The position numbers and the translations under genes were made by a program. A stretch of DNA of 64,000 bases from Anaerolineae bacterium (GTDB taxonomy: Bacteria; Chloroflexota; Anaerolineae; Anaerolineales; Anaerolineaceae): assembly GCA_013314735.1 (NCBI GenBank), contig JABUFD010000004.1, forward strand, positions 124,001 through 188,000, in the 5' to 3' direction. The notes below the pieces were generated by a model. It did no database searches, had not been told where the DNA came from, and worked only from the letters and a program-made list of their open reading frames with translations. Within the stretch, counting starts at the first letter, position 1, and each line of letters begins with the position of its first letter. Positions 56,425-60,483 of this stretch are shown one piece after another.

Positions 56425-56714
56425 AAGCAAACAAATGTCGCCACAGGAATGACATTCTGCACTTGCCCGTCACCGCTGGCTGTGTGAAAATGAACGCAGG
56501 GAAAAAAGGCGTAGAAACAATCGCAGAATCGTTTGCAGAGCGGCATTCTGTCTGCCGCTCTCAAGCGGTTAAATGGGCAACCCGCCATAGCTTTCTCAGC
56601 CCAGCCCATTGCACGATTCCTTCGGACATAAAAAAATGCTGGCCGGCTGCCTGCGTTAGGCCCCGGCCTGGTGGATGGCGTTGGAAAATTAACCACCGGC
56701 AGACAAGTGTTGGA
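56425..56714. other. Intergenic region after priA
   Basis: 290 bases without a gene. It holds the hairpin AGAGCGGCA/TGCCGCTCT (56537-56561) after priA and, on the other strand, the terminator of the small membrane protein gene (56629-56668). Confidence 0.55.
56629..56668 (-). terminator. Terminator of the small membrane protein gene
   Basis: GGCCGG (compl. 56668-56663) pairs with CCGGCC (compl. 56646-56641), followed by AGCATTTTTTT on the minus strand. The loop is long. Confidence 0.6.
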
Positions 56715-57038
56715 TTACTGCGGTTTCTCTTCCTCCCACTCCGCGTTCACCACATCGTCATCGTCAACGGAATGCTTCTGCCCATCAAAGTTCAGGTACG
56801 GGGCAATGAATTCCATGATGCCGTAGTACACCAGCAAATAGGCCAACCCTTCATCAAGGTTGCCCAAAATCGGCAAATTGTCCGGCAAAAATTCCAGGAT
56901 ACCAGCGGTGGGATTGAGGATGTATAAAACACCGACCGCACTTAACAGCCATACCAGCCACTTCGGCCAGCCGCGGAACGATAACGGCACACGGAACAGG
57001 CTGCCTTTGATGTCTTTGAAATCTTGAGGTTCAGTCAT
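56715..57038 (-). CDS. Small membrane protein, DUF1232-like
   Basis: 107 residues. The central segment LYILNPTAGILEFLPDNLPILGNLDEGLAYLLVYYG resembles the DUF1232 pattern (LYLLSPIDLIPDFIPVLGxLDD), and the C-terminus is acidic (DDDDVV...EWEEE). Two hydrophobic helices are likely. Function unknown. AAGGAGAAAC lies before the start. Confidence 0.6.
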   Translation of the reverse strand: MTEPQDFKDIKGSLFRVPLSFRGWPKWLVWLLSAVGVLYILNPTAGILEFLPDNLPILGNLDEGLAYLLVYYGIMEFIAPYLNFDGQKHSVDDDDVVNAEWEEEKPQ

Positions 57039-57078
57039 TGTTTCTCCTTTTAACTTTCAATTCATACTATATACGTAT

Positions 57079-57633
57079 TTATTCCAGTTTTCGTTTCATG
57101 TACAGCGCAATGCTGCCTTTTTCCAGGTCCTGGTTGCTGTACAGGCTCACATCCACCCCGTCGAGGGTAAACCCCATCGCACGGTAAAAGCGGATCGCCG
57201 GCACATTGGTATTCTGGGTTTCGCAGACAATCACCCGCATCCGCTGTGCCCGTGCAATGGAAACCATCTCCTCCATCATCAGCCAACCAATCCCGCGCCG
57301 GTGAAACTCCCGGCGGACGTGGAATTCCCACAGCATCAATGAGCGGTTCCACTGGTACACCTCGGCGATCGCCACTCCCACAAGTAATTCATTCTCCCAG
57401 GCACCGACCGACGTTCCCTGCTGGATGATGTGATCGTATCGTGCCAGGTCTTCTCCGGAGGGCGGCATGGGATATTGCCGCGTTTCCGGCAGCGGTTTCA
57501 GCCGCAGGCGAAAGGTACACTGCTGCTCGCTGTCATTCCATTCCACCGCGTAGATTTGATTGGACTCATGACCGACGATGACATCAGGTACCATGACCAG
57601 TTCTTTTACTGTCAGGGGTTTCAGTTGGATCAT
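57079..57633 (-). CDS. GNAT family N-acetyltransferase
   Basis: 184 residues with the acetyl-CoA motif FHRRGIGWLMMEEMVSIA (about 108-126) and the C-terminal TNVPAIRFYRAMGFTLDGVDVSLYS. WEFHVRREF is the usual strand 4. The acceptor is unknown. It lies just upstream of the small membrane protein gene on the same strand. Confidence 0.88.
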   Translation of the reverse strand: MIQLKPLTVKELVMVPDVIVGHESNQIYAVEWNDSEQQCTFRLRLKPLPETRQYPMPPSGEDLARYDHIIQQGTSVGAWENELLVGVAIAEVYQWNRSLMLWEFHVRREFHRRGIGWLMMEEMVSIARAQRMRVIVCETQNTNVPAIRFYRAMGFTLDGVDVSLYSNQDLEKGSIALYMKRKLE

Positions 57634-57748
57634 GCCGCTTCCATTTCACCTGTTCTCGACTGTTTTCATTGTATCCAAATCCATCCTGCCATGCAATCGC
57701 CGGCAGTCCATCAACAACAGACCGAAATGCTTGTGTTTCGATTTTCCC

Positions 57749-57777
57749 TTGCGAGGTCCGCAGAACAAAGGTATAAT
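57749..57777 (+). promoter_or_regulatory. Promoter of the leader/tryptophanase-family unit
   Basis: TTGCGA (57749-57754), a 17-base spacer and TATAAT (57772-57777). The expected start point is near 57784, about 225 bases before the lyase gene, leaving a long leader. Confidence 0.7.
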
Positions 57778-57804
57778 GCGTGAAATTAACAAGCTGGAAC
57801 AAAC

Positions 57805-57888
57805 ATGATACCAAATAAACCCTGCTCCTATTACGCCTATTATTATCCCGGCCATCCCCGTCATCCGGTGGGAACGGCTGTGGTGTAG
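57805..57888 (+). CDS. Tyrosine-rich leader peptide
   Basis: A 27-codon frame from ATG (57805) to TAG (57886-57888). It starts MIPNKPC, then SYYAYYYPG: five Tyr codons within six positions (57829-57846), followed by Pro-Gly and HPRHPVGTAVV. It begins about 20 bases after the predicted transcription start and lies before a terminator. The upstream CTGGA is a weak ribosome site. Codon clustering of one amino acid in a short frame ahead of a terminator is the pattern of an attenuation leader. Too short to be a structural gene. Confidence 0.65.
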   Translation: MIPNKPCSYYAYYYPGHPRHPVGTAVV

Positions 57889-57973
57889 TGCGCGTTTGAC
57901 CGAGCAGCACACCAGCCAGGCAGACTGAACGTAAGATCAGCAGGTCCTCCTCATCGGATGACCTGCTTTTTTG
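57860..57973 (+). terminator. Attenuator: pairing region and intrinsic terminator
   Basis: The terminator is AGCAGGTC (57939-57946) with GACCTGCT (57960-57967), followed by TTTTTTG. Upstream, GTCATCCGGTG (57860-57870) can pair over 11 bp (one G-U) with CATCGGATGAC (57952-57962), which takes up the terminator loop and the first bases of its 3' arm. A ribosome stalled on the Tyr codons would leave 57860-57870 free; one that reaches the stop would cover it. Confidence 0.7.
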
Positions 57974-58010
57974 CATTTAACCCAACCCAACAACCCCAGG
58001 AGAAGAAACC

Positions 58011-59453
58011 ATGCAAGTCAAATTATCATCCGGAAAAACCATCCCCATGGAAATGCACAAAGTCCGCATCGTACAGCAAACCTGGCTGCGGCCGGTTGAG
58101 GAACGCCGCCGGGCGATCCAGGAAGCCGGGTTTAACACCTTCCTGCTGCGCAGCAAGGACATCTTCCTCGATATGCTCACCGACAGCGGCACCAATGCGA
58201 TGAGCGACAACCAGTTGGCGGCAATGATGGTATCGGATGATGCCTACGCGGGCAGCGAAAGTTTTTTCAAACTCACCAACGCGGTGGAGGAAATGCTCGG
58301 TTTCCGGTTGACCATCCCGGTCCACCAGGGCCGTGCCGCGGAACACCTCATCGCGAAAACCTTTGTCCGGCCCGGCGATGCCTGCATTATGAATTACCAC
58401 TTCACCACCACCAAAGCCCATTTTGAAATGGCCGGCGGGGTGGTGCTGGAACTGTACAAGGACGGCGCCCTCCAGACCGAAAGTGACGATCCCTTTAAAG
58501 GCAATATGGATCTGCAAAAGCTGGAAGATACCATCCAGCAATTCGGCGCAGACCATGTCTCCTTCGTGCGTATGGAAGCCACCACCAACCTGATCGGTGG
58601 TCAGCCGTTTTCACTGGAGAACCTGCGCGCGGTGAAAACAATTTGCGAGAAACACGGCATCATGCTCGTTTTTGATGGTTCCCTCCTGATGGAAAATGCC
58701 TTTTTCATCCAACAGCGCGAATTACCGCAAATGAGCGTGGCGGAGATCGCACGGGCGATGATGGAAACCGTTGACTTGTTTTACATGTCTGCCCGTAAAG
58801 GGCCTTCCGTCCGCGGCGGCCTGATGGCAACCAATCACCAGGCTCTCTTTGACCGGTTGCTCCCCTGGGTGCCGGTGTATGAGGGTTTTTCCACCTACGG
58901 CGGTATGTCCACCAAGGAGATTGAAGCCATGGCGGTCGGCCTGCGGGAAATGCTGGCGGATGATATCGCCGGGGCCGGGGCGGACATGGTGGAATACTTT
59001 GTGGGGCGGATGGTGGAAGAAGGCCTGCCGGTGGTAACCCCTGCCGGTGGCCTCGCCTGCCATGTGGATGTGAAACGCTTCCTGCCGCATATTCCTCAGA
59101 CCCAGTATCCCGCCGGGGCATTGTCAGCCGCGTTTTACCTTGTCAGCGGGGTGCGCGGCATGGAACGCGGAACGATTTCCACCGACCGCACCCCAGATGG
59201 CGCTGACGTTCCCGCCGGGGTGGAACTGATGCGCCTGGCGGTGCCGCGGCGTGTCTATACCCTTTCTCACATCGAGTTCGTGGTGGACCGATTGAAATGG
59301 TTGTTCCAGCACCGCAGCCTGGTGCAGGGCTTGGGTTGGATCTCGGAACCGCCCGTTTTGCGCTTTTTCTTTGGCCGCCTCTCCGCCTTGAACCAGTGGG
59401 ACGCAGCCCTGATGAACGCCTTTGCTGCGGATTTTGGCAGCAACGCCCTTTAG
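58011..59453 (+). CDS. Tryptophanase/tyrosine phenol-lyase family protein
   Basis: 480 residues, AGGAGAAG 6 bases before the ATG. Family marks: LLTDSGTNAMSDNQLAAMM, DDAYAGSESFF, the phosphate-binding HQGR (105-108), Asn193 in TTNLIGGQP, Asp222 for the PLP ring nitrogen, Schiff-base Lys263 in MSARK and YEGFSTYGGM. Such enzymes split Trp or Tyr to indole or phenol plus pyruvate and ammonia by beta-elimination. Arg next to the PLP Asp (D-x-x-R in known members) is Leu225 here, and SRS/SRN is SES, so the substrate may differ. It is placed under a Tyr-codon leader and attenuator. Confidence 0.85.
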   Translation: MQVKLSSGKTIPMEMHKVRIVQQTWLRPVEERRRAIQEAGFNTFLLRSKDIFLDMLTDSGTNAMSDNQLAAMMVSDDAYAGSESFFKLTNAVEEMLGFRLTIPVHQGRAAEHLIAKTFVRPGDACIMNYHFTTTKAHFEMAGGVVLELYKDGALQTESDDPFKGNMDLQKLEDTIQQFGADHVSFVRMEATTNLIGGQPFSLENLRAVKTICEKHGIMLVFDGSLLMENAFFIQQRELPQMSVAEIARAMMETVDLFYMSARKGPSVRGGLMATNHQALFDRLLPWVPVYEGFSTYGGMSTKEIEAMAVGLREMLADDIAGAGADMVEYFVGRMVEEGLPVVTPAGGLACHVDVKRFLPHIPQTQYPAGALSAAFYLVSGVRGMERGTISTDRTPDGADVPAGVELMRLAVPRRVYTLSHIEFVVDRLKWLFQHRSLVQGLGWISEPPVLRFFFGRLSALNQWDAALMNAFAADFGSNAL

Positions 59454-59476
59454 GAGAATCTGTGATCTTTTGATTG

Positions 59477-59520
59477 GATGGCTGGTTTCGGGCAAGTGTC
59501 TGAAACCAGCCATCTTGTTT
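59477..59520 (+). terminator. Terminator after the lyase gene
   Basis: GATGGCTGGTTTC (59477-59489) pairs perfectly with GAAACCAGCCATC (59502-59514), followed by TTGTTT. Confidence 0.9.
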
Positions 59521-59560
59521 AAACGGGTTGATCTACTTCATAAACTACCCCATGTCGGGA

Positions 59561-59566
59561 TACAAT
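59561..59566 (+). promoter_or_regulatory. -10 box of the adenylyltransferase-like gene
   Basis: TACAAT at 59561-59566, 36 bases before the start at 59602; GGGAGGGAAATGAG is the ribosome-binding region. No clear -35. Confidence 0.45.
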
Positions 59567-59601
59567 CATCCCATGATGCCAACCTGCGGGAGGGAAATGA
59601 G

Positions 59602-60483
59602 ATGCTGACAGCCAAACAAATCCAATTTCAAGAAACAATCATCGCCTGGGGCCGACAGGAATCCACCCTGCGTGCGATGATCCTCACCAGCACCCTCGCC
59701 CTCCCTGACGGTGATTCCGACCTGCTTTCTGACTTTGACCTGATCCTGGTTGTGGAGGATATCGTTCCCTATCACGCCAGCCGGAAATGGCTTTCCGCCT
59801 TTGGGGAAGTATTAGCCCTCTACCGCGACCCGATCGAACACCAGTTCGGTTTTCCATCTTCGGGTTATGTGATCCAGTTTGACCAGTTGAACAAAATCGA
59901 CTTCACCCTGTGGACACCGGATACCTTGCGCCACATCACCAACCTCCCCGAACTGCCGGAGGAACTCGATGCCGGTTATGCCGTATTGCTGGATAAAGAC
60001 GGGCTGGCCTCCAATCTACGCCCGCCCACCTTGCGGGGCTACATTCCCAAACCGCCCTCAGAAAGTGAATATGTCGAGCATATCGAGAACTTTCTGCTGG
60101 ACGCAACCTACGTCGCCAAGTTCCTTTACCGCGGCGACCGGATCGCTGCCCACCACATCCTGGATGAAATGATGAAACAGGAAAGCTTGCGCCCGATGCT
60201 GGAATGGCGCATGGAGATCGAACATGGCTGGTCGCTGAAACCCGGACCGTATATGCGCCGCATTCAGACCTGGCTTCGCCCGGAACTGATGGCCGCACTG
60301 GAAAACACGTATACCGGGCTGGATCCTGCCGCTACCTGGGATGCCCTGTACAACACCATTGCCCTGATGCGCACCACAGCCCGTGAAGTCGGGAACGCAC
60401 TGGGATATGAGTATCCTGCTCGGATGGAAGAACGCATCCTGGCACATGTGCGCCAGGTGCAGGAACTACCGCCCATCGGCTAG
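59602..60483 (+). CDS. Aminoglycoside 6-adenylyltransferase-like protein
   Basis: 293 residues from the ATG after GGGAGGGAAATGAG. The nucleotidyltransferase motif is SDLLSDFDLILVVED (about 35-50), comparable with the DxxQDYDI block of AadE/ANT(6) enzymes, and QLNKIDFTLWTPD supplies a third acidic residue. C-terminal helices (EYVEHIENFLLDATYVAKFLYRGDRIAAHHILDEMMK) are typical. True family members adenylylate streptomycin; chromosomal relatives may have other targets, and resistance is not shown by sequence alone. Confidence 0.78.
   Translation: MLTAKQIQFQETIIAWGRQESTLRAMILTSTLALPDGDSDLLSDFDLILVVEDIVPYHASRKWLSAFGEVLALYRDPIEHQFGFPSSGYVIQFDQLNKIDFTLWTPDTLRHITNLPELPEELDAGYAVLLDKDGLASNLRPPTLRGYIPKPPSESEYVEHIENFLLDATYVAKFLYRGDRIAAHHILDEMMKQESLRPMLEWRMEIEHGWSLKPGPYMRRIQTWLRPELMAALENTYTGLDPAATWDALYNTIALMRTTAREVGNALGYEYPARMEERILAHVRQVQELPPIG

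Follow-up and report, generated by a model that had tools for sequence, protein, structure and literature searches.

Attenuators of tryptophan, histidine and phenylalanine operons use the supply of charged tRNA to control transcription, and the pheL and hisL leader peptides end soon after their control codons, while in tna operons the TnaC leader senses free tryptophan. The locus described here lies in a 64,000-nt stretch of an Anaerolineae genome (the window; host assembly 4.09 Mb, 13 contigs) and has the parts found in trpL, hisL and pheL attenuators, namely a promoter, a short open reading frame (ORF) in which codons for a single amino acid are clustered, an antiterminator and a terminator that exclude each other, and a downstream gene. 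It differs from them in that the amino acid is tyrosine, the gene codes for a PLP lyase with the tyrosine phenol-lyase (TPL)/tryptophanase fold, and the host belongs to Chloroflexota; moreover, the stop codon lies at the hairpin base in 14 of the 25 leaders collected from the host's family, and eight of these 14 call for either a change of frame or a non-standard start. Like TnaC-tnaA, the locus has a leader peptide controlling a lyase of the same fold, but it carries a Tyr run and an intrinsic-type terminator and is predicted to respond in the opposite direction. A literature search, judged from its result entries, returned no paper describing such a system.

We propose that the window very probably carries a ribosome-mediated transcription attenuator that senses tRNA-Tyr charging and controls a TPL-like lyase. 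The model draws on sequence anatomy, on the conservation of Tyr codons and hairpins, on a thermodynamic switch in the window and on a Tyr T-box upstream of one orthologue, all computed directly. From these we infer that, when Tyr-tRNA is plentiful, the ribosome would reach the leader stop, the terminator would form and the lyase gene would be off. When Tyr-tRNA is scarce, the ribosome would stall on the Tyr codons and the two antiterminator arms (Table 1) would pair, so that the terminator could not form and the lyase gene would be transcribed.

Table 1 Features of the leader region and lyase gene, in positions of the window
Feature	Position	Strand	Evidence
Promoter-like site, sigma-70-type TTGCGA-17-TATAAT	57749-57777	+	10 of 12 matches
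Leader peptide gene, MIPNKPCSYYAYYYPGHPRHPVGTAVV (then stop)	57805-57888	+	Tyr-rich leaders at 25 of 25 family loci
Sensor codons: Tyr 9-10 (57829-57834), Ala 11, Tyr 12-14 (57838-57846)	57829-57846	+	
Antiterminator 5' arm	57860-57873	+	Folding
Antiterminator 3' arm, overlapping terminator	57948-57962	+	Folding
Intrinsic terminator: hairpin 57939-57967 and U run to 57972	57939-57972	+	Folding
TPL-like PLP lyase, beta-eliminating lyase family, R217L/K256R subfamily	58011-59453	+	480 aa ORF

The leader and its predicted antiterminator switch

The elements read at this locus in the initial annotation, a promoter, a leader of 27 codons, five of them Tyr, a terminator and a lyase gene, were all recovered in the window, the promoter as a promoter-like site, with the Tyr codon run upstream of the lyase gene and the terminator between the two. 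The promoter-like site is weak taken alone, since shuffles contain a mean of 0.6 such sites against the one found; transcription would start near 57784. The terminator hairpin and U run appear in the minimum free energy (MFE) structures of both the whole leader and 57899-57967, and a simple terminator scan returned no terminator. An Rfam search of 56500-60000 matched no family in the leader and no T-box (RF00230) up to E 1; a snoRNA-like match at 56681-56743, under its gathering score, lies outside the leader.

The alternative pairing that the same annotation had proposed is real in the window and disrupts the terminator in its folds, but it is not conserved in other leaders. It joins 57860-57870 with 57952-57962 over 11 bp, including one G-U, and is extended by 57871-57873 with 57948-57950. 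The pairing is present in the MFE structure of 57857-57967 (-46.4 kcal/mol, z -2.8, with 2 of 200 shuffles as good), and the bare duplex between the post-Tyr leader and the terminator is borderline relative to shuffles (p 0.058). Thermodynamic folding of the leader, which had been suggested as a check, bore out the switch in the window: with ribosome masks placed approximately, from the generic footprint, which is well established, the modelled probability of the terminator is 0.89 for ribosome-free RNA, falls to 0.00 when a ribosome is stalled at the final Tyr codon and is 0.88 when the ribosome has reached the stop. Direct folds agree with the masked model, 57857-57967 giving the antiterminator and 57899-57967 the terminator.

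Tyrosine codons and a T-box upstream of orthologous lyases

Related loci were sought in 101 relatives, 147 genomes of the host's family, 301 of its order, 400 of its phylum and 396 of its class. The 147 family genomes contain 24 loci of the lyase subfamily at E 1e-140, and a 25th, cut by a contig end, was added by pattern search. A Tyr-rich leader precedes the lyase at all 25, with YYY in 23 and YLY or YIY in the remaining two (L009 and L011). Both Tyr codons are used (67 TAT, 35 TAC), so what is conserved is the amino acid, not the DNA. Within 330 nt upstream, in any of three frames, YYY occurs in 23 of 27 clade regions, which take in L065 and L066 from other families, and in 0 of 38 paralogue regions, which stop at the match start with the start codon unchecked; two regions of each set are shorter than 330 nt. 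The antisense strands of the clade regions contain none (0/27), and 33 of 2548 tiles of 330 nt from the window contain one. The pattern TAYTAYTAYSTNTAGGG has 11 matches in the 147 genomes, all positioned before this lyase, ten of them before lyases already found and the eleventh before the contig-cut one; the reversed control also gives 10 matches, so that only the position of the matches, not their number, is evidence. The 25 leaders, which have only Met and Tyr residues in common, divide into 11 of design A and 14 of design B.

Design A (n = 11, including the window) has a long Tyr cluster, with the terminator 52-92 nt past the last Tyr codon in the ten leaders placed by the finder; the terminator of L063 was placed by hand, and its masked bases follow its hairpin. 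No general design-A antiterminator was found at equilibrium: only the window's leader switches, the ten others retaining a terminator probability of 0.70-0.96 when stalled. Conservation upstream of orthologues, a check proposed in the initial annotation, thus held for the Tyr codons, kept at every family locus, and for the hairpins, and failed for the window's pairing region, which the other design-A leaders do not conserve. Complementarity between the post-Tyr leader and the terminator beats shuffles at p 0.05 in five of the 11 (L003, 0/500 shuffles; L010, 0.012; L062, 0.022; L058, 0.038; L059, 0.040), with p values of 0.058 in L001, 0.080 in L002, 0.094 in L063, 0.128 in L007, 0.188 in L060 and 0.510 in L061. 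The pooled Fisher p is 3e-6 (n = 11), or 3e-5 with a single member of the g17 group, over rows that are related and non-independent.

Design B (n = 14) consists of the Tyr run, one residue and TAG, the G of which is the first base of a hairpin. The finder located this hairpin at eight loci (L004, L009, L011, L012, L013, L054, L055 and L064), where the last Tyr codon lies 4-5 nt from the stem; in L005, L006, L008, L056, L057 and L073 it was read from the sequence and aligned. Judging from this spacing, the 5' arm of the hairpin would lie beneath the ribosome itself, whether it stood at the final Tyr codons or had moved to the stop. Across the 14 loci, 87.6% of the cells of the 15-bp stem are paired, 15 cells are doubly changed and the covariation score is 0.324, each value reached by 0 of 500 shuffles, while the six pairs with a double change are not unusual (67/500 shuffles as high). 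Slid controls are 45-57% paired, a comparison that favours the stem model because it was drawn from L013 and L054. The lyase tree places 13 design-B loci in one group, with the design-A locus L010 inside it and L073 outside the tree. The U tract is poor in the hairpins of L006, L008, L056, L057 and L073, five of the six leaders whose Tyr run is in frame 0, and several of these have more hairpins downstream; the sixth, L004, has a good U tract, as do most out-of-frame leaders. Inspection by eye also showed CCCUA pairing with UAGGG around the Tyr codons in some leaders of design B.

These leaders could also be read without any sensing of tyrosine, if the Tyr codons only slow translation, tuning expression or mRNA stability, and the hairpin is an ordinary 5'-UTR terminator or processing site. 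That equilibrium switching is seen in the window's leader alone, and that five design-B hairpins have no good U tract, would fit such a role; a Tyr run at every family locus that uses both synonymous codons, and the short distance from the last Tyr codon to the stem at the eight measured design-B loci, would not. A second explanation retains tyrosine as the signal and reverses the response: as in TnaC, a nascent Tyr-rich peptide would arrest the ribosome at high free tyrosine and induce a catabolic lyase. The related tryptophanase is under TnaC control, and the arrest motif could be YAYYY(Y)(P/G), which recurs in eight of the 11 design-A leaders (L061 has YAFYYYG), or, in design B, the stop codon that follows YYY by one residue in 12 of 14 leaders. 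The two designs, however, have only Tyr in common apart from the start Met, and an early stop past the control codons is likewise a feature of pheL and hisL.

A T-box, which turns its gene on with uncharged tRNA, bears on both explanations. It was found upstream of one orthologue outside the family, L066 (genome G503; lyase 53% identical), on the same strand and about 115 nt before the gene, with an RF00230 score of 88.2 bits (E 1.1e-19) against a gathering score of 93, and with no match at the Rfam gathering threshold. Its specifier is UAC (Tyr) in a register calibrated on trpS, three trpB-like genes and trpE (UGG), thrS (ACC), valS (GUC) and ileS (AUC), genes named by NCBIfam from 70-residue starts, fragments below the whole-protein cut-offs; two further T-boxes read UUC before proteins without an NCBIfam match that we take to be PheS from their appearance. 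The predicted signal in the window is the same uncharged tRNA-Tyr, and on L066 the T-box replaces the leader peptide; in contrast to the window's leader region, the T-box RNA binds the tRNA directly. This orthologue favours the sensing of uncharged tRNA-Tyr, one of two options raised in the initial annotation, under which Tyr scarcity switches the gene on; a TnaC-like sensor is less favoured, and we consider it unlikely. Slow translation without sensing, which likewise does not sit well with a Tyr T-box on an orthologue, is more improbable still. The expectation that expression responds to tyrosine is thus supported by the leaders and their conserved hairpins, and control through tRNA-Tyr charging remains our preferred reading.

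The Tyr T-box on the lyase is one independent case and not a rule. Among the 12 loci of the subfamily that lie outside the family and have readable upstream DNA (L032, L065, L066, L113-L118 and L120-L122; L123, which begins at a contig end, is uncounted), the other 11 had no T-box up to E 0.01 (L065 being searched through L097), and none of the 12 had YYY within 420 nt upstream. Short Tyr-containing stretches without Met occur at L118 (FYYWYP) and L032 (CYYILYGGKQQ). Upstream of the L065 lyase (genome G343) there is a promoter-like site followed by a strong bare hairpin and U run, with no Tyr codons, and another control may exist there. T-boxes are common in the Chloroflexota genomes examined (2-11 matches per genome, n = 11) and include some on stand-alone trpB-like genes with Trp specifiers.

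Out-of-frame leaders in eight relatives

In eight of the 14 design-B loci, all in relatives and none in the window, the Tyr run lies in the +1 frame relative to a conserved ATGGTG(AGC, AGT or TCT)TTTTAT, which is missing at the corresponding place in the six frame-0 loci; the two types are interleaved in the lyase tree. From ATG to stop, the out-of-frame leaders measure 67 nt in six cases and 70 and 73 nt in two. The +1 frame is open in all eight, a joint outcome seen in 45 of 5000 shuffles, and a stop interrupts one or both of the other frames in every region. In the eight genomes the pattern ATGGTGNNYTTTTAT matches 15 times, eight at the lyase and seven elsewhere with other middle codons, and its reversed control four times. 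A conserved slip site followed by an open frame suggests a starvation-triggered, programmed +1 frameshift in these eight relatives. Six of the eight have the ATG 7-10 nt past a -10-like box (L012 by eye), and the other two have it 21 nt past such a box; for the frame-0 leaders the distance is 7-8 nt in four and 24 nt in one, with no box seen in one. Because the ATG follows the -10-like box so closely, design B appears to have a near-leaderless start.

The arrangement resembles the prfB +1 site and hungry-codon frameshifting in its slip-prone UUU-U, its upstream Shine-Dalgarno (SD)-like GGUG and its slow A-site codon. Compared with the known layout and SD spacing of prfB, the A-site codon is Tyr rather than stop, and the SD-like site lies about 2 nt farther from the slip codon. 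A tentative reading for the eight relatives is that the attenuator is a two-step tyrosine gate, operated by a hungry-codon +1 frameshift and controlling a Tyr-making enzyme that may start from phenol. With tyrosine plentiful, the leader ATG GTG Ser TTT TAT would end within a few codons. At a hungry Tyr codon, the ribosome would slip +1 on UUU-U into Tyr-Tyr-Tyr-x-stop at the terminator base (Tyr-x-Tyr-x-stop in two relatives), where it would stall again and block termination. If true, this gate would put hungry-codon frameshifting to productive use; a 2016 review (PMC5009743) states that there is no known case in which such frameshifting yields a trans-frame product specific to starvation, and it calls pheL frameshifting incidental.

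It is also possible, though somewhat less likely, that these eight leaders start at an AUU or AUA codon after the SD-like GGUGA and involve no frameshift. GGUGA stands at a normal distance upstream in six leaders, with only GGUG in L009 and L011, and in the same six the TGA inside ATGGTGAGY leaves AUU/AUA as the sole start-like codon near the 5' end of the frame, with the caveat that L005 has an inner GTG; the conserved codon, moreover, is UAU and never UAC in all eight. Yet the position is AUU five times, AUA three times and never AUG, and TTTT and the Ser codon of the ATG frame (AGC, AGT or TCT) are kept in all eight while the codons downstream diverge. The ATG itself is retained in L009 and L011, and the same spot is an ATG 7-8 nt past a -10-like box in four of the six frame-0 relatives. 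We consider the +1 slip at UUU-U, ahead of a hungry UAU, somewhat more probable than initiation at AUU/AUA.

The lyase, its metabolic setting and its role

The initial annotation had assigned the enzyme to the tryptophanase family, and PRK13238, the broad 'tryptophanase' subfamily, is its best-scoring NCBIfam model; by its sequence, its pocket residues and the fold predicted for it, however, the lyase is closer to TPL than to tryptophanase. Its predicted structure (pLDDT 82.9) superimposes on TPL (PDB 9j3u, 2ez1) with a TM score of 0.88 at 41% identity, while its score against the TPL model TIGR02618 is 458.3 bits, below the cut-off of 720.7. We compared residues in 65 proteins (27 of the subfamily, 29 TPL-type and 9 tryptophanase-type), using site numbers that we take to be those of Citrobacter TPL, mapped by eye through the 9j3u alignment. 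The 27 subfamily proteins keep the PLP lysine and the phenol pocket residues T124, M379, R381 and F448, with L007, L013 and L064 gapped or cut at some sites. Unlike TPL, all 27 carry R217L and K256R, positions that are Arg and Lys in all 38 paralogues, and both changes recur in nine of nine further orthologues. In the tree, 36 subfamily rows stand apart from TPL and tryptophanase with 100/100 support, subject to a long-branch warning. The lyase thus belongs, by sequence, to a distinct TPL-like subfamily. Its closest named relative, 80% identical, is on the 'Chloroflexi bacterium' contig DSBE01000279, which puts the host in Chloroflexota.

The initial annotation had seen in a gene turned on by tyrosine scarcity a hint of a biosynthetic or other role, and a TPL-like subfamily with two changed active-site residues fits that suggestion. 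The lyase is possibly Tyr-forming, and such a role, for example the salvage of phenol, is more likely than Tyr breakdown because the gene would be switched on by Tyr shortage. PheA is present in 17 of 27 lyase genomes; the other ten, which include the genome of the window (95.5% complete) and G155 (99%), show none. A match to PDH_N, the TyrA domain, at E 1e-20 or better occurs in 13 of the 15 family genomes with PheA (G343 and G503 lie outside this search), and the ten genomes without PheA have weaker matches (best G019, 9.2e-18, and G030, 8.3e-17) or none listed; the PDH_N ORFs of G000 and G030 fall below all NCBIfam TyrA cut-offs. Given these PheA and TyrA-domain counts, the lyase is no plain replacement for TyrA, a general role that we rejected. 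The hosts without PheA nevertheless allow a Tyr-supply role for the lyase in some. A prephenate-dehydrogenase-like ORF in the window's genome (L165:281-1267, minus strand) scores far below all NCBIfam TyrA cut-offs.

Crude ORF clustering at 19 loci, which recovered the lyase in 18 and left the T-box locus L080 outside the lyase cluster, showed neighbours common mostly to close pairs, save one cluster in eight of the 19 loci and one in three. A streptomycin adenylyltransferase-family gene (PF04439; 59599-60483) lies directly downstream of the window's lyase and is absent from the other 18 loci.

A conserved attenuator specific for tyrosine is well supported; it is a novel form of leader-peptide attenuation and stands before an unexpected gene. 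A lyase family known for Tyr and Trp breakdown occurs here in a form that seems to be switched on by Tyr shortage, with leader peptides exerting the control in the host's family and a T-box doing so in a single member of a second family. Whether starvation frameshifting serves as a regulatory signal can be tested concretely on the out-of-frame leaders. The direction of the reaction in cells is directly testable, and the control suggests a route of tyrosine supply in a group in which ten of 27 genomes show no PheA.
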